A DNA stretch of 8,922 bases from Eubacterium sp. (GTDB lineage Bacteria > Bacillota_A > Clostridia > Lachnospirales > Lachnospiraceae): contig JAMPGN010000173.1 in the NCBI GenBank assembly GCA_023663915.1, positions 1-8,922 on the forward strand, written 5' to 3'. The position numbers and the translations under genes were made by a program. This document shows positions 640 through 8,922 of the stretch, in pieces (position 1 is the first letter of the stretch; each line of letters opens with the position of its first letter). The notes beneath the pieces are model-generated. The model was not told the origin of the DNA. It saw nothing but the letters and a program-made list of their open reading frames with translations, and made no database searches.

Positions 640-645
640 TGCCAT

Positions 646-1968
646 CTACTCATGCAGCACACTATTTTCCCATCCCGCATCCAATGCCGCATTACAGCTC
701 TCATCCAGCATCTTTGCGCATTCCTGCGGGGTGACGCTCTTGGACAGCAATTCATGGATATTTGGCCAGAATACGCTCCGTACAGAAGTGTTGTCACCCT
801 GCCAGTTCGGGCTGTTATTCATGAAATCTACCACATTCACCGCGTTTTTGGTAAATTCGTCCAGCATGGTGATCTGATCCTGGTATTTCTCGGAAACCTT
901 GCTGCTCACAGGGATATTTCCGGCGGATATGTCCAGCCATTCATCGTTTTCATAGATAAATTTGACGAAGTCTTTCGCTACCTTAATTTTTAATTCGTCG
1001 CCATTATCAAACACTTCAAAACCGGTCACGAAAGAAGTTGCCACGTTGCCGGGGAAATTCACATATCCATAGTTTTCCATATCGCCATAGAGACCGAAAC
1101 TGGCATTGTTAAAAATATGGATCGCAAGCTGTCCGTTGCTGAATAATTCATTACAATCGGAAATTTCAAGGTTCTCCGGATGGGGCGGATACCAGCCTTT
1201 GTCCACGCCAGTCTGTATCCATTCCAACGCTTCCATAGCAGCGTCATTCTCGAAATCAAAGTGTCCATCCGCATCAAAAATCGGGCTTCCGAAAGCGCGT
1301 ATATAGGACATAATATGGGTATCGCCCTGATTGTTCTTGCCGTACATCATCATCGGATAAGACTGATTGGGAAGGTTTGCGGCAAGGGTATCCAGAATAT
1401 CCGCCCATTCTTCCAGTGTCCAGTTCTGTACTGTGACTGTGTCGGCAATGTATTTTTCAAGACCGCAATCACGGAAAAGTTGTTTGTTGTAGGTCAGTAT
1501 ATTTTGCATACTCAAGAACGGCATCATATAAATTTTGCCGTTTGCCGTGCTCATTGCCCACGATGCAGCGTCGATATCGTTCCGCAGTTCGTCCGAAATA
1601 ATATCGTCCAGCGGGACAACTTTGCCGGTATGCAGGTAGGAAGCCATGTTGAAATAGCCTTCATAGAGAACATCGGTCGCGTCCTCCGTATCGAAACAGC
1701 CTGTGATTGCTTTTACTTCATCTACATAGTCAAAGGTTTCCAGACGGATCGTGACATCCGCTTCTTCGTACTGTGCCGTAAATGCTTCGCCTGCCTGCTG
1801 TAAAAAGGTGTTTGAATCCACAATATCGGGATTGCTGACAGAGTTCATCACCAGGTTGGGGACTTTGATGATAAGAGTCACTTCTTTAGTGGCTTTGCCG
1901 CCGCAGCCAGCCAAAAGGCTGACACACAATGCGAGTGTGAGTATCAAGGCAGTTCGCTTTCTTTTCAT
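646..1968 (-). CDS. Extracellular solute-binding lipoprotein, family 1 (SBP_bac_1)
   Basis: The protein has 440 residues, a normal length for family 1 ABC substrate-binding proteins. A signal peptide (M-K-R-K-R then a hydrophobic run) ends in the lipobox L-A-G-C with Cys22, so it should be lipid-anchored on the outer face of the membrane. The mature part has typical family features: residues around N-G-K-I-Y-M-M-P-F, Y-N-K-Q-L-F, and W-T-L-E-E-W-A-D-I-L in the first lobe, and a later F-S-N-G-Q-L-A-I region. Members usually bind sugars or oligosaccharides and deliver them to an ABC importer. The start is supported by AGAGGA at 1978-1983, nine bases upstream. It lies 42 bases after the hybrid kinase gene on the same strand, with no visible terminator between, so the two form an operon. 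No permease or ATPase gene accompanies it, and it may serve the kinase as a ligand-presenting partner (inference). The ligand cannot be deduced. Confidence 0.88.
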   Translation of the reverse strand: MKRKRTALILTLALCVSLLAGCGGKATKEVTLIIKVPNLVMNSVSNPDIVDSNTFLQQAGEAFTAQYEEADVTIRLETFDYVDEVKAITGCFDTEDATDVLYEGYFNMASYLHTGKVVPLDDIISDELRNDIDAASWAMSTANGKIYMMPFLSMQNILTYNKQLFRDCGLEKYIADTVTVQNWTLEEWADILDTLAANLPNQSYPMMMYGKNNQGDTHIMSYIRAFGSPIFDADGHFDFENDAAMEALEWIQTGVDKGWYPPHPENLEISDCNELFSNGQLAIHIFNNASFGLYGDMENYGYVNFPGNVATSFVTGFEVFDNGDELKIKVAKDFVKFIYENDEWLDISAGNIPVSSKVSEKYQDQITMLDEFTKNAVNVVDFMNNSPNWQGDNTSVRSVFWPNIHELLSKSVTPQECAKMLDESCNAALDAGWENSVLHE

Positions 1969-2010
1969 AATGGATTTTCCTCTTTTCCTAATTGTATTTG
2001 TATTAGAAAA

Positions 2011-4206
2011 TCACTTCGGATTTTCAAGTTTTGCACTTTTTCTTAATTTACCCAGCAAGGCATTTACGTCGATCGGTTTCGTCAAGAAATCATTCATTCC
2101 GCTGGATAATGCCTGTTCACGGTCTTCTTGGAACATATTGGCTGTGCAGGCATAGATCAGGACAGATTTCGCGTCGGCTCTGTCTAATTTCCTAATCTCA
2201 CTCGCTGCAGTACATCCGTCCATGACAGGCATCTGCATATCCATTAGGATAATATCAAATTCCCCGATCTCGGATTGGTTAAACATATCCACAGCTTCCT
2301 TGCCGTTTTGCGCGAGAGCAGTCTCAAATCCTTCCATTCCGAGGATTTCCAGCAGGATCTCAGCGTTGAGTTCCACGTCTTCTGCAACCAGAATCTTGAT
2401 CGGTTTGCCGTCCGCCCTGCGTGTGGAAGCGGCAATATCTCCAATTTCATCCGCATTGTTTTGCATTTCCAGTTCAGTTGGAATATCCTGAACGATCTTG
2501 GAAGGAATCGTGACGGTAAAGGTACTCCCGACATTCAGCTCACTCTCCACCGTAATATCCCCGCCCATCGCGTTGGCAAGGAGTTTGCTGATTGCCATGC
2601 CAAGGCCGGTTCCTTTGATGCCGCTTGTGTTCCGGTTACGCTCTTGACTAAAGGAGTCAAAAATCTTATCAATATATTCTGCGGATATTCCAATTCCGGT
2701 ATCCTGACAGCGGTAAGTCGTAGTCACATGCGCATCATCTGTTTGTTCCTGCGTGACAGAAAGCCGTATCCATTTGCCTTCCGGCGTAAATTTAGCCGCG
2801 TTGCCAACAATGTTCATCAAAATCTGTTTCGTGCGGGTAAGATCGCCCTCGATACAGGGTGCTACGATATCTTTTTCCACAAGAAATTCCACGCCCCGGT
2901 TTCGGATATTGTCAGCCTGCATCGCCGCAATCTCATCAATCATCGTGGAGACCAGCATTGGTTCGTTTATAATGTCTACTTTGCCGGCTTGAAGTTTGGA
3001 CATATCCAGAATATCATTCACCAGCGACAGCAGATAGTTCGCCGTGCTGTGGGATTTAATCAGCCATTCCTTAATTTGCGGTCGCTGGCTCTCATCGTCG
3101 ATATTTACCATGATTAAGTGGTTCATACCGATCAGGCCGTTTAACGGCGTCCGGATCTCGTGGCTCATGTTGGAGAGAAATTCTTTCTGCGACCGCGCCG
3201 CTTCCGTCGTCCGTACCGTTTTTAGTTTCAGCCGCATGATGATGAGCAGCATGATGAAAATCGTAAGGATGACAACGACTATCATCGTCATGCCGAGGAT
3301 CATAAACGTTCTGTTCTGTTCCGAAAAGACTTCCTCATTGATTGACATGATGAAATACAGATCAAAACTGTCATCAAACGGTATAAAATAGAAGAGTTCC
3401 CTGCCTTTCTCGCCAGTGTGGGAGTGGTAAAAACCAAAGGTTTCCCGGTTATGAAGCCTCTCTTTGACCTCTTCATTTGTCTGGTCGGAACTTTCCGAAC
3501 CCGATAGGTGGTCGAACAGGTTATTTGTCTTGTTTAAGTAGATTTCCTTGTTGATATTGACGATATAGTTTCCATTCATGTCGATCAAGGCGCTGTGTCC
3601 GCGTGCTTTCCCATTTTTGATAAAGCTGTCGATTACCATGTTGTCCTGAATGGATGAAATATCGCTGATTCCGATTAGTGCAAACATTTTCTTGCCGTCT
3701 ATGCTGTAGTCATTCAGCCGGATTCCGTATAAAATACTTTCTTTCGCTAGCCATCCGCCTTCTATCTTATCGTCAAAACGGACAACAATTTTCTCCTCAC
3801 CGTCCTTAAAATAGGACAGGAAATCCAGATTCCGCTTCATAATATCGTCCCCAGGCTTATAAATGACATATTTATCCGTATAGACAGTGCCGTCCTCAGC
3901 GACCAGATAGACGTGTGTGAAGTCGCTGGAAGCGCATTCCAAATTGATTCTTGTCTCAATATCTTCGATCGTCTTACATTCAAAACTGGTGAAACGTTCC
4001 TGAATCTCATAAAGATCTTCCCAGCAGATTTCAATATATGTCTGAATGGTCGCCTTGTCATGCTCTGCGATCTCGCTGATCGAATTGATGATGTTTTCCG
4101 AAATAGTCTTATTCAGTCGGTTGATATAAATGAATGCTGACAGACCGACGATCATTGCCGCCGAAACAATGATCAGCAGATAAAATAGTCTATGTTTCTT
4201 TTTCAC
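2011..4206 (-). CDS. Membrane hybrid sensor histidine kinase with Cache-like sensor and C-terminal receiver domain
   Basis: The 731-residue protein starts at GTG, eight bases after a GAGG site at 4215-4218. A first membrane helix (about 7-28) and a second (about 301-325) bracket an extracellular domain of some 270 residues. That domain is probably a double Cache fold, from its helix-then-sheet pattern and V-Y-L-V-A-E-D-G-T-V-Y-T and S-A-L-I-D-M-N-G-N-Y segments. HisKA follows with S-H-E-I-R-T-P-L-N-G and phospho-acceptor His349. HATPase_c has the N box around Asn465/Asn469, D-T-G-I-G-I at 502-507, F-D-S-F-S-Q at 516-521 and G-T-G-L-G-M at 532-537. The receiver domain (about 603-722) keeps Glu609/Asp610, phospho-acceptor Asp656 in M-D-M-Q-M-P, Thr688 and Lys710, so every catalytic residue looks intact. 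No HAMP or Hpt domain is seen. It is the first gene of the operon with the solute-binding lipoprotein and diverges from the BMP-family gene. No partner response regulator is encoded in the window, so its output is unknown. Confidence 0.93.
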   Translation of the reverse strand: MKKKHRLFYLLIIVSAAMIVGLSAFIYINRLNKTISENIINSISEIAEHDKATIQTYIEICWEDLYEIQERFTSFECKTIEDIETRINLECASSDFTHVYLVAEDGTVYTDKYVIYKPGDDIMKRNLDFLSYFKDGEEKIVVRFDDKIEGGWLAKESILYGIRLNDYSIDGKKMFALIGISDISSIQDNMVIDSFIKNGKARGHSALIDMNGNYIVNINKEIYLNKTNNLFDHLSGSESSDQTNEEVKERLHNRETFGFYHSHTGEKGRELFYFIPFDDSFDLYFIMSINEEVFSEQNRTFMILGMTMIVVVILTIFIMLLIIMRLKLKTVRTTEAARSQKEFLSNMSHEIRTPLNGLIGMNHLIMVNIDDESQRPQIKEWLIKSHSTANYLLSLVNDILDMSKLQAGKVDIINEPMLVSTMIDEIAAMQADNIRNRGVEFLVEKDIVAPCIEGDLTRTKQILMNIVGNAAKFTPEGKWIRLSVTQEQTDDAHVTTTYRCQDTGIGISAEYIDKIFDSFSQERNRNTSGIKGTGLGMAISKLLANAMGGDITVESELNVGSTFTVTIPSKIVQDIPTELEMQNNADEIGDIAASTRRADGKPIKILVAEDVELNAEILLEILGMEGFETALAQNGKEAVDMFNQSEIGEFDIILMDMQMPVMDGCTAASEIRKLDRADAKSVLIYACTANMFQEDREQALSSGMNDFLTKPIDVNALLGKLRKSAKLENPK

Positions 4207-4255
4207 TTATGGTACCTCACGCTGCATTTCTTTCTTCTATTTATTGCATATATCA

Positions 4256-4284
4256 TAAATCTTTTTCTACAAAAAGTCTATCAA
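4256..4284 (-). promoter_or_regulatory. Possible promoter of the kinase/solute-binding operon
   Basis: Read on the minus strand, TTGATA (4279-4284) is followed after 17 bases by GATTTA (4256-4261). A TATGAT at 4252-4257 overlaps the latter. The -35 is good but the -10 at correct spacing is poor, so the exact site is uncertain. The position, about 50 bases upstream of the GTG start, is reasonable. Confidence 0.3.
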
Positions 4285-4430
4285 GTTTTGTGGTGAAACA
4301 TTAAATTGAAAGCAAAATTTTTATTTAGGGAGATGTATTTATTCCGGCATTTATGGGGATTCAAGAAAAATAACATTTGGAGGCATATAATTTGACAAAA
4401 ATTGCTTCAATGGGAACTTATTTTGATAGA

Positions 4431-4447
4431 AACATTTGCGAAATGTT
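4431..4447. promoter_or_regulatory. Probable operator: 17-base palindrome AACATTTGCGAAATGTT
   Basis: Two perfect 7-base arms (AACATTT and AAATGTT) flank GCG. The palindrome ends 17 bases before an exact TATAAT and so covers the place where the -35 box would lie. This is the expected geometry for a dimeric repressor, or for an activator replacing a weak -35. It does not fit the usual CcpA cre pattern well. The cognate regulator is not identifiable in the window. Confidence 0.45.
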
Positions 4448-4484
4448 CATATTAGTTATATACTTATAATGGGATATCGCAAAT
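4434..4484. repeat. Inverted repeat flanking the -10 box (ATTTGCGA / TCGCAAAT)
   Basis: ATTTGCGA at 4434-4441 is the exact reverse complement of TCGCAAAT at 4477-4484, with 35 bases between them that contain the TATAAT box. The left copy lies inside the 17-base palindrome. The pair could be two binding sites of one regulator either side of the promoter, but eight-base matches in a 300-base AT-rich region can also arise by chance. Confidence 0.4.
4442..4470 (+). promoter_or_regulatory. Likely promoter of the BMP/DUF5722 operon
   Basis: An exact TATAAT at 4465-4470 is the best -10 box close to the BMP gene. The hexamer 17 bases upstream is AATGTT, a poor -35, which suggests that an activator is needed. 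That hexamer is itself the right arm of the palindrome at 4431-4447. Transcription starting near 4477 would give a 5' leader of about 40 bases before the ATG at 4518. Confidence 0.5.
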
Positions 4485-4517
4485 ACATAGTAGAGAAGGA
4501 TAAGGGAACGGCAACAG

Positions 4518-5753
4518 ATGAAAAAGAAAATGAAAACGATAATAGTTGCAGTTACGCTAATGCTCTTAGCCTGTGCTTGCGGCGGGCAGACGGTGTCTGA
4601 GGAAAATGCGGAAGCGGCGGAAGACACGCAGGCCGCCAATCCGTCTGTGGACGAAAGCAATAGTCCTGAGCTGGATGCGAAACAAGATACAGAACAGCAG
4701 ACGGCGGAGAATCCCCGTGACGACCGCAAATCGGGAGTCCGGATTGCGCTTGTCACGGATGTCAGTTCGGTGATGGACAGCGGATTTAATCAGGCGGCGC
4801 TTGAGGGGATACAGACTTATGCGGACGGAGCGGGGGTGTATTATTCCACTTACAGTACGGAAACGGATACGCCTGAGGCCTATAAGAACACTGTTACAAA
4901 TGCCATTTTGGATAACGCGGAGCTGATTGTCTGCGTCGGCACGCATTTTGAACAGGTTGTTGGCGAACTGCAGGATGAATACAGTGACATTTATTTTCTA
5001 TTGCTGGACGGTGTACCGAAAGATGCTGACGACAATCCTGTCGAGATTGCGCCGAATGTCCATTGCATGACATATCGGGAAGAGGAAGCAGGTTATCTGG
5101 TTGGCTATATGTCGGTCATGGAGGGCTATACAAAGTTTGGGTTTATTGGCGGAGAGCAGCTTCCCTCGGTGAAAGGCTATGGTTATGGGTTCCTGCAGGG
5201 AATCGATGAGGCGGTGGCTTCTTTGGGAAATCATGATGAAATTCAGGTAGACTATTGGTATGCGGATACCTTTTCCCCGAATCAGCAGATTGAGGAAATG
5301 TCTGCCGAGTGGTATCAGGCGGGAACGGAGATTATTTTTGCCTGCGGCGGTTCGCTGTATGAGTCCGTTTTATCTGCGGCGGAAGAATGCAACGGCGTTC
5401 TGATTGGCGTGGACGCGGATCAGAGCGGTATTTCCGGGCGTTTCCTGACATCTGCCACCAAAGGGATTGATTCTTCGGTGATTGTGGCGCTCGATGACTT
5501 TTTTGCAAGCGGCAAAAAATGGCCGGAGGAACTGGCGGGCAAAGCGGTTTCTTACGGCGCGAAGGAGAAGTGCGTAAGCCTTCCCGTACAGGGGAATGCA
5601 TGGCGTTTCCAGAAGGCTACGATGAATCAGTACTTACAGACGCTTACACGTCTAAGATCCGGGGAGATCGAAATTCCTCTTGATGCGGACGCTCCCCCGC
5701 GGGTAGCCATTACGGTTATCTATCATGACCAGCAGGAGGAAAGTGACTCTTGA
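4518..5753 (+). CDS. BMP family (PnrA-like) substrate-binding lipoprotein
   Basis: The protein has 411 residues. A signal peptide ends in L-L-A-C with a likely lipidated Cys19. An acidic, low-complexity linker of about 50 residues (24-73, rich in Glu, Asp, Ala, Gln) precedes the folded domain and accounts for the extra length over the usual 330-360. The BMP/PnrA hallmarks are present in order: D-S-G-F-N-Q at 87-92, E-E-E-A-G-Y-L-V-G-Y around 188-197, F-G-F-I-G-G at 207-212, and G-V-D-A-D-Q at 297-302. Known members bind purine nucleosides for an ABC importer; one relative, Med of Bacillus subtilis, is regulatory. The ATG follows AAGGGAA (4502-4508) by nine bases. It heads an operon with the DUF5722-type gene, which overlaps its stop. 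The permease and ATPase genes normally adjacent are absent. Nucleoside binding is therefore plausible but unproven. Confidence 0.85.
   Translation: MKKKMKTIIVAVTLMLLACACGGQTVSEENAEAAEDTQAANPSVDESNSPELDAKQDTEQQTAENPRDDRKSGVRIALVTDVSSVMDSGFNQAALEGIQTYADGAGVYYSTYSTETDTPEAYKNTVTNAILDNAELIVCVGTHFEQVVGELQDEYSDIYFLLLDGVPKDADDNPVEIAPNVHCMTYREEEAGYLVGYMSVMEGYTKFGFIGGEQLPSVKGYGYGFLQGIDEAVASLGNHDEIQVDYWYADTFSPNQQIEEMSAEWYQAGTEIIFACGGSLYESVLSAAEECNGVLIGVDADQSGISGRFLTSATKGIDSSVIVALDDFFASGKKWPEELAGKAVSYGAKEKCVSLPVQGNAWRFQKATMNQYLQTLTRLRSGEIEIPLDADAPPRVAITVIYHDQQEESDS
5734..5739 (+). promoter_or_regulatory. Ribosome binding site supporting a TTG start
   Basis: AGGAGG lies inside the end of the BMP gene, ten bases before TTG at 5750-5752. 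That TTG overlaps the BMP stop TGA at 5751-5753. No ATG or GTG start occurs nearby in the same frame, and the TTG gives an immediate signal peptide (M-N-T-G-R-K-K then a hydrophobic run), so it is the likely start. Confidence 0.75.
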
Positions 5754-7468
5754 ATACCGGAAGAAAGAAATTAACGTTTTGTAGTTTATGTATATTTGTG
5801 ATTGGTTTGGTGATTGGTATTTCTGTTTTTCCTTCCGGCTGCGGCAAGGTCACGCCTGTCACGGTGGACAATCCTATGCAGGAGGAAATGCGGATCGAGG
5901 AAGAGCTTACGGAGGGCAATGTCGTTCTTTCCGCACAGCAGCTTTCTGCGTATGGCAGTGTTACAGAATGTCTCATCAAGGAGGACAAGGAGACGGTTGG
6001 GCTTACATTGAGTATGCCGGATATTCCGAGAAGCGACGACTCCATGATCTATCTGTTCGCGTTTGAACTTTATGAGGAATGTACGTTTGCGGACGGCTTT
6101 GACAAAGAGCCGATTGCGAGCACGAGAAAGGCGACGGACGGCGAACTTGAATGGGCATATGAGAGCGGTCAGCTTTTCCAGCAGTTTGTTCCAGCTCTGC
6201 TTTTGGATGAAAAATATGTTCCGATTGCCGAGAGTATCTGTATCAGTAATCCGGAGATGCTGGCGGACGAGGTTGACAATGCACCACAGCCGGAATCGAA
6301 GAAAGGACTTCTGCTAGATCCTCAGATGTTGGAGACGCCACTATTGACGGATTTGGATGTGAAGTATGCCATTTATAACATTCCACTTTCACATATCCTT
6401 GGCGAGACCACGAATGAGATTCAGCCGACGATTACATATGAGTATAAGGGCAAAGAATATAAATTTAATGGCGCCAGTATCGAAGGATATGACCATCTTT
6501 TTAAATATCTGACGGACAGTGGTATGAACTCCACGGCGATCGTTCTAAACGACTGGAATGATAATTATCCGGAGCTGATTCATCCGTTGGCGAGAAATAA
6601 GGAATCGAAGGCATATTATTATGCTTTTAACACCGCCGATGAGGAGGGGTGTGACTATCTGGAAGCGATTGCCAGTTTTTTGACAGAGCGTTATTCCGGC
6701 GGGGAGTATGGGCTTGTGTCAAACTGGGTGATCGCCAACGAGATCAACCAGTATCGGATCTGGAATTACATGGACACGGACGATATCAACCTGTACTGTA
6801 CCGAGTTTGAAAAAGCGCTGCGTATTTTCTATAATGCGGCGAAGAGCAATTACGCCGACGCGAACGTCTATTTCAGCATCGATCATGACTGGAATAACAA
6901 TGAAGGTGATAACGGGGATCATTTCAATGCGAAAGATCTTGTGGCGACGATCAATGACATTGCAAGACAGAAAGGCAATTATGATTGGGGACTTGCGATC
7001 CATCCGTATCCCGATCCGCTGACGAGAGTAAGTTACTGGACGGAGACTTATGATAAGACGGAGAATGCGCCGATCCTTACTATGATGAACTTAAGTACGG
7101 TAACGGATGTTTTAGAGAAAGAGGAGTATCTTGACAGGAGCGGTGAGGTTCGCAGCATTATGGTTACGGAACTCGGTTTTTCCTCGGCTTCCGGTGAAAA
7201 ATTGCAGGCGGCGGCTTTTGCCTACTGTTACTATATTATCGAGGCAAACCCTTACGTGGACGCGTTTGTCATGAACCGACAGACGGATGCCATGGAAGAG
7301 GTAAGGCAGGGGCTTGCGTTCGGGATTTATGACCTCGACCAGACGCCAAAGTATATTTTTGATACGTTTAAATACATTGATACCGACGAGGCGCAGGAGC
7401 ATACGGAATTTATGCTCAATATCCTTGGAGCGAACAGTCTGCAAGAAGCTCTTTCGTGGGCACAGTAA
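5750..7468 (+). CDS. Exported DUF5722-type protein, putative clan GH-A glycoside hydrolase
   Basis: The protein has 572 residues from a TTG start. A basic start and hydrophobic stretch (about 8-27) end in P-S-G-C at Cys31. This is lipobox-like although Pro replaces the usual Leu, so it is either a lipoprotein or anchored by an uncleaved helix. Residues of about 55-185 look like a beta-rich accessory domain. The C-terminal 380 residues look like a TIM-barrel enzyme: W-V-I-A-N-E-I-N-Q at 326-334 with Asn330-Glu331 as the candidate acid/base pair, S-I-D-H-D-W-N-N-N near 376-384, A-I-H-P-Y-P at 416-421, and M-V-T-E-L-G-F at 471-477 with Glu474 as candidate nucleophile. An N-E pair after strand 4 and a Glu after strand 7 are the clan GH-A signature. 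I assign DUF5722 from memory of the N-R-Q-T-D-A (509-514) and G-L-A-F-G (521-525) region. Overlap with the BMP gene implies coupled translation. The substrate is unknown. Confidence 0.7.
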   Translation: MNTGRKKLTFCSLCIFVIGLVIGISVFPSGCGKVTPVTVDNPMQEEMRIEEELTEGNVVLSAQQLSAYGSVTECLIKEDKETVGLTLSMPDIPRSDDSMIYLFAFELYEECTFADGFDKEPIASTRKATDGELEWAYESGQLFQQFVPALLLDEKYVPIAESICISNPEMLADEVDNAPQPESKKGLLLDPQMLETPLLTDLDVKYAIYNIPLSHILGETTNEIQPTITYEYKGKEYKFNGASIEGYDHLFKYLTDSGMNSTAIVLNDWNDNYPELIHPLARNKESKAYYYAFNTADEEGCDYLEAIASFLTERYSGGEYGLVSNWVIANEINQYRIWNYMDTDDINLYCTEFEKALRIFYNAAKSNYADANVYFSIDHDWNNNEGDNGDHFNAKDLVATINDIARQKGNYDWGLAIHPYPDPLTRVSYWTETYDKTENAPILTMMNLSTVTDVLEKEEYLDRSGEVRSIMVTELGFSSASGEKLQAAAFAYCYYIIEANPYVDAFVMNRQTDAMEEVRQGLAFGIYDLDQTPKYIFDTFKYIDTDEAQEHTEFMLNILGANSLQEALSWAQ

Positions 7469-7552: not shown

Positions 7553-8488
7553 ATGGATTATAAGGCAATTCCTTTTGAGAAAAGAATCAAACAAAACATT
7601 AGAAATTATTCGCTGGATAATCTGTTTGCGCTGGATACGCTGACGGAGTTTAGCCGGGCGTTCTGTGCGGCGGCGGACGTGGCGATACTGATTACGGAAA
7701 GACATGGTGAGAAGATCGTATCGGTCGGTGGTTTTGCAAGGTTTACGCCGGATGTGGTGGCGCAACCGGGGCGCAAGGTGCGAGTTTACGGTAGGACGAT
7801 CGCGCATCTGTATGCGGAGACGGATAAGGTTGCCGAAGACAAACGGGAAGCCGTGGAGAGAATGTTGGACGGTTTTGCAAGCATCTTGTCGCAGTGGGGC
7901 GAGGAAGCCTACCTTCATATGGAGTCTTCCATTTATATGGATGAACTGGAGGAAAAGGTGGGCGTACAGCACGTGCAGACCGCCAAAGGAGAGAAGGAAG
8001 ACGTGCTGACGGGGGTGTACCATAAGCATTACTTTGAGGAGCGCATGCACATCGTAGACCGTTCCGAGGTTGTTCCGGTAGCCGTGGTCAATGTGAACAT
8101 CAATGACTGGAAGTTTGTCAATGACCATTTCGGGGATACAGAAAGCGACAGGCTGATTAAGACGATCGCGGATATTCTGAAAAAAGAAGCCAAGCCGGAC
8201 TATGTGATTGGGCGTGTGGATGGTGATGTGTTTATTACGTTGATCCCCATGGCGGAGGACGGGGAGGCGGAAGCGTTCTGCACGAATGTGCAGGCGGCAT
8301 GTCTTGCTTATGACGATCCGGTACTCGCGCCTTCGGTGGCATGCGGCGTGGTTTATAAGACAAACGTCGAGGAGCGGCTTGAGGAGAAATTACCCGATGC
8401 GGAGTATGAGATGTTCAACAATAAGTTTGAGATGAAAAACGCACCGGGGTATCGGGAACGGCTGGAACATGGAGTGAAAGAAAAATGA
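7553..8488 (+). CDS. Degenerate GGDEF-domain protein with N-terminal PocR/GAF-like sensory domain
   Basis: The 311-residue protein has no signal peptide or membrane helix, so it is cytoplasmic. Residues of about 20-125 resemble a small PocR- or GAF-like ligand-sensing domain (L-F-A-L-D-T-L-T-E-F-S-R-A-F, then V-A-I-L-I-T-E-R-H-G-E). Residues of about 147-275 follow the diguanylate cyclase fold: D-V-L-T-G-V-Y near 150-156 and W-K-F-V-N-D at 186-191. The signature motif is D-G-D-V-F at 223-227 instead of G-G-D-E-F. The two metal-binding Asp positions before W-K are Asn182 and Asn184, and the upstream R-x-x-D inhibitory site reads A-K-P-D. It should therefore be unable to make c-di-GMP; a binding or signalling role is more likely. 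The ATG follows AAGAGAGG (7537-7544) by eight bases. A promoter lies upstream and a terminator immediately downstream. Confidence 0.8.
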   Translation: MDYKAIPFEKRIKQNIRNYSLDNLFALDTLTEFSRAFCAAADVAILITERHGEKIVSVGGFARFTPDVVAQPGRKVRVYGRTIAHLYAETDKVAEDKREAVERMLDGFASILSQWGEEAYLHMESSIYMDELEEKVGVQHVQTAKGEKEDVLTGVYHKHYFEERMHIVDRSEVVPVAVVNVNINDWKFVNDHFGDTESDRLIKTIADILKKEAKPDYVIGRVDGDVFITLIPMAEDGEAEAFCTNVQAACLAYDDPVLAPSVACGVVYKTNVEERLEEKLPDAEYEMFNNKFEMKNAPGYRERLEHGVKEK

Positions 8489-8496
8489 TGGATTGG

Positions 8497-8529
8497 AAAG
8501 GCAGCATTCGGTGGGAGTGCTGTCTTTTT
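8497..8529 (+). terminator. Rho-independent terminator
   Basis: AAAGGCAGCA (8497-8506) pairs with TGCTGTCTTT (8518-8527) with a single G-U wobble. Inner pairs TTC/GAG extend the stem to 13 with a five-base GGTGG loop, and a run of five T ends the element. It begins eight bases after the stop of the degenerate GGDEF gene and so closes that transcription unit. Confidence 0.85.
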
Positions 8530-8554
8530 GGATAGGGACAAAGGAATGTATTTT

Positions 8555-8922
8555 ATGAAAAGATATAATAAAGCAATGGTATGTATGAGTTTTTTACTTG
8601 CTGGTGTATTGATAGGATGTTCACAAAAGGATACTGAAAATATTTTCCATGAAACATCTGCCATAATTTCCAATGGTACACTTTGGGCGAATCAATTATC
8701 TGAAAATACAGAGCAAATTTCATCTATAATCCATGAAAGCGCGGATATTCTATATTATGAAAATGGTTATCCTTATATTCATGATATACTTACCAATAAT
8801 ACGAACAATATAATTACGGAAACAGAGTATTGTATGCTTGCGTATGATGTTAATGGTATGCCCTTAAAATTGTATTGGAACTTTTTGGACAGTAGTGCAG
8901 AATGTAGTTATGATTATGTTGT
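8555..8922 (+). CDS. Small lipoprotein, possibly DUF5780-like, 3' end outside the window
   Basis: The frame is open from ATG at 8555, with AAAGGAA eight bases upstream, to the window edge; about 122 codons are visible. A signal peptide ends in L-I-G-C with Cys22, so it is a lipoprotein. A region of about 55 polar residues follows, then N-N-T-N-N-I-I-T-E-T-E and L-A-Y-D-V-N-G-M-P-L-K. This resembles the small beta-sandwich module seen in DUF5780 and similar lipoproteins (N-x-T..., A-Y-D-x-N-G-x-P). The match is from pattern memory and is tentative. The gene is much poorer in G+C than its neighbours (15 of 60 bases at 8761-8820 against 37 of 60 at 7741-7800), which suggests a different origin. 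It starts after a terminator and belongs to a separate unit; no clear promoter is seen in the 25-base gap between them. Confidence 0.7.
   Translation, partial: MKRYNKAMVCMSFLLAGVLIGCSQKDTENIFHETSAIISNGTLWANQLSENTEQISSIIHESADILYYENGYPYIHDILTNNTNNIITETEYCMLAYDVNGMPLKLYWNFLDSSAECSYDYV

Follow-up and report, generated by a model that had tools for sequence, protein, structure and literature searches.

Two receptor gene pairs, probably independent units, stand back to back on a Lachnospiraceae contig

The window analysed here, 8,922 nucleotides of contig JAMPGN010000173.1 from a Eubacterium sp. of the Lachnospiraceae, is apparently the whole record, and all gene absences reported for it refer to its inside. 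It carries two divergently oriented pairs of genes, each of which joins a lipoprotein of the solute-binding protein (SBP) type to a different kind of partner: on one strand a family 1 SBP (SBP1) stands with a hybrid histidine kinase, and on the other a BMP-family lipoprotein stands with a protein of the family DUF5722. The features concerned are:

646..1968, minus strand: SBP1, family 1 solute-binding lipoprotein (PF01547), second gene of the kinase–SBP1 unit
2011..4206, minus strand: hybrid histidine kinase with an extracytoplasmic part (about residues 30–300), HisKA, HATPase_c and a receiver (Pfam)
4207..4517, no strand: divergent intergenic region, GC fraction 0.30
4518..5753, plus strand: BMP (PnrA-like) lipoprotein (PF02608; pocket alignment)
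5750..7468, plus strand: DUF5722 protein (PF18989) with an N-terminal beta-rich part and a predicted barrel resembling glycoside hydrolase clan GH-A

A Pfam scan of the window's proteins matched SBP1 to SBP_bac_1 (PF01547, 3.1e-24), the kinase to HisKA, HATPase_c and Response_reg, the BMP gene to Bmp (PF02608, 1e-36; 127 bits as compared to a curated cut-off of 24.1) and the DUF5722 gene to PF18989 (2.3e-136). SBP1 follows the kinase gene after 42 nucleotides, and the BMP and DUF5722 genes share a 4-nucleotide overlap. An earlier note, made from the sequence alone, had described just this layout, that is, a family 1 SBP gene in one operon with a hybrid kinase gene and, on the divergent strand, a BMP-family SBP gene coupled to a DUF5722 gene, and coordinates, spacing and domain assignments bear it out; likewise, its remark that permeases, ATPases and sugar-catabolic genes are missing holds for the window according to the open reading frame (ORF) list and Pfam. 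Matches to Rfam families or tRNA were also not found in the window.

The locus probably consists of two independent two-gene units, a kinase–SBP1 sensing unit and a BMP–DUF5722 receptor–glycosidase unit, that happen to stand back to back. Searching a genome collection for six peptide patterns of DUF5722 yielded 19 loci encoding a relative (flanks of up to 10 kb, some contigs being shorter), and in a second sample of 397 genomes from the family of genome G001, DUF5722 matches were present in 110 and 30 loci were fetched. The 24 pair loci considered in the following, from 24 distinct genomes, are these 19 and the six nearest of the 30, minus that of G001, which was already counted; a locus with BMP-like and DUF5722-like pieces (G337, L117) and an additional DUF5722 copy of G001, truncated at the contig start (G001:C217, L119), are not included. 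BMP directly precedes DUF5722 in all 19 peptide-pattern loci and adjoins it or is fused to it in the six nearest of the second sample; altogether, the coupling is kept in 24/24 loci with close, complete relatives, once as a single ORF of 967 amino acids, and fused BMP–DUF5722 proteins form five protein clusters. At the 24 other fetched DUF5722 loci, whose proteins are at most 45 % identical, no BMP was found in flanks of about 1.5 kb.

SBP1 matches were found in 11 of the 397 genomes (11 full-length genes in ten genomes and one fragment), and a kinase homologue stands directly before the gene in all 11 full-length cases; as these kinases range from 27 % to 83 % identity, the pairing looks old. 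Within the fetched flanks, kinase–SBP1 lies beside BMP–DUF5722 at none of the 24 pair loci, and BMP–DUF5722 lies beside kinase–SBP1 at none of the 11 full-length SBP1 loci. Genome G079 carries both units, on different contigs, and among the loci examined their adjacency was found solely in the window. A search at E 1e-20 found no SBP1 in the 19 genomes of the peptide-pattern scan, which are therefore uninformative on its linkage. In nucleotide comparisons (blastn), a kinase–SBP1 relative (L062) is similar over window positions 644–4281 and a BMP–DUF5722 relative (L001) from 4436 onwards; since similarity ends and starts again with different relatives, each unit retains an upstream region of its own. 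An inverted repeat of 7 bp around a 3-nucleotide spacer (4431–4447, in the divergent region upstream of BMP) was considered as an operator common to both units and rejected, being absent from the 19 relatives tested (five of the 24 pair loci lay outside this test). A motif scan gave 27 promoter-like sites where shuffles predicted 16.9 and five terminator-like sites where 7.5 were expected, and was not used.

The earlier note had envisaged one surface-sensing module with a conserved order of all four genes, in which both SBPs feed the single kinase and, one may add, DUF5722 makes the ligand. Such a module would explain why the four genes adjoin in the window while importer genes are absent, but the order recurs at 0/24 and 0/11 relative loci, G079 keeps the units on separate contigs, and the two halves of the window match different relatives, with a break in the divergent region. 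On the sampled genomes, the module is already largely refuted, and we regard it as highly improbable. What stands of the idea of binding proteins feeding a kinase is the part concerning SBP1, whose unit is kept (11/11) and free of importers (0/40 neighbours, see below), whereas BMP as a second input found no support. The same break could also stem from a chimeric assembly in which two contigs were joined within the divergent intergenic region, as the change of relatives between 4281 and 4436 and an adjacency seen nowhere else would lead one to expect. The GC content at third codon positions is, however, alike on both sides (SBP1 0.546, kinase 0.551, BMP 0.549, DUF5722 0.543), and a natural rearrangement would look identical; we therefore consider a joining artefact improbable.

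Within the kinase–SBP1 unit, HisKA, HATPase_c and a receiver are common to all 61 kinases aligned, that of the window among them, and dCache_1 is present in three of them. The kinase model has a mean pLDDT (predicted local distance difference test) of 76.8 and a pTM (predicted template modelling score) of 0.43, and structure searches with the kinase returned cytoplasmic domains; the sequences hint weakly at a dCache-like fold of the ectodomain. As neighbours of the 11 units, 40 genes were picked by hand, some overlapping antisense ORFs being left out, and around the BMP–DUF5722 pair 89 of 134 listed genes were scanned. With six permeases as phmmer probes, no importer permease was found among the 40, while the same probes found seven among the 89. 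GGDEF domains occur in six of the 40, EAL in two and MCP signalling in three. GGDEF genes lie at most three genes from the unit in G272, G266 and G034, and also in G152 as judged by BLAST and the tally, and the gene right after SBP1 is of the chemoreceptor type (PocR-MCP, MCP-CZB) in G079 and in one of the two G363 loci (L064 8314–9096; L068 10945–12495). As far as domain matches can tell, these neighbourhoods lean towards signalling.

The conserved and importer-free pairing would fit an SBP that feeds a kinase. In such a scheme, the surface lipoprotein SBP1 would bind a solute that is probably a sugar and, once loaded, dock on the kinase's extracytoplasmic domain, which may change phosphoryl flow through the kinase's own receiver to unlinked partners; the neighbourhoods of the relatives suggest that the output would be signalling (cyclic di-GMP (c-di-GMP), chemoreceptor or transcriptional) rather than uptake. 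SBP partners of kinases are known from LuxP–LuxQ and TorT–TorS. LuxQ and TorS are, like the window kinase, hybrid kinases and have a similar cytoplasmic half, as seen in NCBIfam matches over the kinase and receiver part; an assignment as LuxQ or TorS equivalog was rejected at 253.7 of 1200 and 275 of 676.5 bits, respectively, far under the curated cut-offs. In CuaD–CuaS–CuaR of Ruminiclostridium cellulolyticum, the SBP attaches to the ectodomain of its kinase and renders cellobiose responses more efficient (PMC10384115), and the gene of this lipoprotein SBP, distinct from the importer SBP, adjoins that of the sensor kinase as it does in the window. The window unit shares with the CuaDSR type the conserved SBP–kinase adjacency and the absence of an importer permease and differs from it in lacking a separate regulator: its hybrid kinase already includes a receiver, and no CuaR-type regulator gene lies beside the pair in the window. 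XylFII–LytS, an SBP complexed with a sensor kinase ectodomain and also named in PMC10384115, is alike by description. Since SBP–kinase binding of the CuaS type has been published, kinase–SBP1 probably belongs, as a good new case, to an already known kind, the SBP-fed sensor kinases, and the newness for Gram-positive bacteria that had been suggested for the locus falls away. The unit would add a hybrid-kinase example to this kind and offers a clean pair for ligand finding.

For the second unit, the binding pocket is informative. In the window BMP, D81, D87, F90, N91, F252, V298, D299 and K315 are as in nucleoside binders, and eight of nine scored positions are identical (residues as listed in PMC13325309; positions placed by alignment). 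Sequence match and pocket, together with the fold of a fused relative, liken it to the nucleoside-binding proteins PnrA, BmpD and Lbp; unlike these, it has no adjoining importer genes and is paired with or fused to DUF5722. The linked BMP-type ATPase and permeases that mark a BMP/PnrA ATP-binding cassette (ABC) importer are missing from the window, and the clade shows Opp-type permeases in 5/24 loci. Cousin BMPs (23 of 24 were kept, L141 being dropped since another reading frame had been taken for its ORF) are mostly found beside ABC ATPases. Among the closest known systems is also 2hqb from Bacillus halodurans, titled activator of the comK gene, for which we know of no enzyme partner.

On the DUF5722 side, a fold search with the fused relative led to clan GH-A, with GH39 (5jvk) as the best match, followed by GH1 enzymes and PslG (5bx9, 9g17). 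E331 (in an NE motif) and E474 of the window protein are invariant in 48/48 aligned relatives, and the predicted model places E723 and E866 at the ends of strands. By analogy, from which strand numbering and roles are also taken, E331 and E474 would be the candidate catalytic glutamates after strands 4 and 7. A predicted barrel with two invariant glutamates at strand ends is what the DUF5722 part has in common with clan GH-A glycosidases; it is set apart from them in that Pfam reports DUF5722 only and in its pairing with or fusion to a BMP receptor. DUF5722 was not named in the literature searched, and a BMP–glycoside hydrolase fusion was not described among the titles and abstract starts of matching literature. 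As far as could be seen, BMP–DUF5722 is a new arrangement and the fresher of the two findings.

A BMP receptor related to nucleoside-importer SBPs may have parted from its importer and entered a constant partnership with DUF5722, a presumed membrane-anchored glycosidase of the clan GH-A type that would trim a surface or environmental glycan, while the BMP part would bind a nucleoside-like ligand that positions or gates the enzyme. We tentatively propose, with considerable doubt, that BMP–DUF5722 is a ligand-gated cell-surface glycosidase, in which a former importer receptor switches or targets glycan cleavage in response to extracellular nucleosides. If true, a transport receptor would have taken on the control or targeting of a surface enzyme, nucleoside sensing would be coupled to glycan processing in Lachnospiraceae, and a function could be assigned to part of the DUF5722 family. 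Several observations weigh against the general view of the unit as a receptor that left its importer for an enzyme. The ninth pocket position (F151), tentatively aligned, is Y in the window BMP, and the pocket is relaxed in the clade, where F27 is kept as F in 13/23 and replaced by Y in eight, by L in one and by I in another, 10/23 have A at V224 and D19 is D in just 1/5 fused proteins. Moreover, six of the 23 cousin BMPs have no adjoining ATPase motif, an Opp-type importer lies downstream in five of the 24 pair loci (L007–L010 and L018, apparently one lineage), and ABC_tran occurs in 3/89 scanned neighbours.

These Opp-type genes also nourish the thought that the pair works in trans for an importer of the Opp or nucleoside type, with DUF5722 freeing a product that BMP passes on to a shared permease, and the placement of cousin BMPs beside importer ATPases as well as the largely kept pocket would agree with it. 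Yet at 19/24 loci the scanned neighbours include no permease (some contigs being short), the Opp-type genes of L008 and L009 bring their own SBP_bac_5, and a BMP held in one chain with a large enzyme would be an awkward donor to a permease; we judge this explanation unlikely. A similar question arises for SBP1, which could be an ordinary importer SBP with permease and ATPase encoded elsewhere, the kinase regulating that importer without touching SBP1. Genes of importer SBPs may lie apart from those of their permeases, and among the 40 neighbours ABC_tran occurs twice and PTS_EIIC, Glyco_hydro_77 and Alpha-amylase once each. Importers at homologous loci, which the earlier note had named as evidence against its reading, do in part exist: the kinase orthologues of G003 and G214 lie in one gene run with a sugar ABC importer. 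The SBPs of these importers are, however, not SBP1 orthologues (24 % over 146 residues in one case and no real match in the other), and the constancy of the kinase before SBP1 at 11/11 loci with no permease among the scanned neighbours likewise speaks against a mere importer component, so that this explanation, too, seems rather unlikely.

Other findings sit uneasily with a kinase fed by SBP1. Searched against the PDB, a profile built from 15 ectodomains did not rise above chance (best E 0.016), and c-di-GMP genes are near kinase–SBP1 at just 4/11 loci, all of distant relatives. Among ten genomes with the kinase ectodomain, seven have an adjoining SBP1, two (G192 and G214) have none beside the kinase, and the contig of the tenth (G358) stops at the kinase; three further orthologues add G016 and G018 without SBP1 and G003, whose contig ends 370 nucleotides past the kinase. 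In total, the kinase lacks an adjoining SBP1 in four genomes and is cut off by contig ends in two more, and genome searches did not find SBP1 in G003 or G358. In the kinase tree, with G003 labelled as being without SBP1 despite its contig end, SBP1-adjacent kinases do not form one clade, and the four label changes were equalled by 239/500 shuffles. 

A suggestive sign of shared contigs, with contig size standing in for identity, is that 33/89 kinase clusters have a longest contig equal in size to that of one of 71 SBP clusters (the best 89 of 225 and 71 of 637, respectively), namely 20/28 of the closest kinases, 4 of the next 12 and 9 of the last 49.

Some relatives of the kinase–SBP1 unit have peculiarities of their own. 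In G266, the kinase is split over two ORFs of 176 and 557 amino acids (L071 9096–12645), reflecting a broken gene or an assembly error. L073 (6443–12727) is another SBP–kinase arrangement, with a row of an HD and GGDEF response regulator, an SBP1-like fragment of 131 amino acids, a complete SBP_bac_1 protein and a kinase homologue of 972 amino acids. The gene of 581 amino acids directly before the G034 kinase (L072 5081–6826) is probably the Alpha-amylase counted among the 40 neighbours, a hint that the ligand of SBP1 may be an alpha-glucan. Around the BMP–DUF5722 pair, G079 and G389 have a family 2 glycosyltransferase (tested for L113) and a protein of 154 amino acids behind it (L113 10543–11764, L115 10801–12063), the latter probably being the signal peptidase II counted twice among the neighbours of the pair. 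In L004 (6936–8683), the pair is immediately preceded by a response regulator (Response_reg and Trans_reg_C) and a kinase-like gene, and similar pieces are present in L005.

The remainder of the window comprises:

2–630: LytTR fragment and a small gene without Pfam match, at the left end of the window
7553–8488: GGDEF gene, after DUF5722
8528–8920: first part of a DUF5780 protein whose N-terminus resembles that of lipoproteins, GC fraction 0.31, ending at the window edge

The small gene at the left end is presumably DUF3021-like. Positions 2–630 match G207, G079 and G125, the holders of the nearest kinase–SBP1 units, at 84–90 % (three of nine genomes searched). In L001 (4206–6907), an 89 % relative of the window's GGDEF gene also comes after DUF5722, there separated from it by one more gene, which encodes GGDEF, EAL and C_GCAxxG domains.

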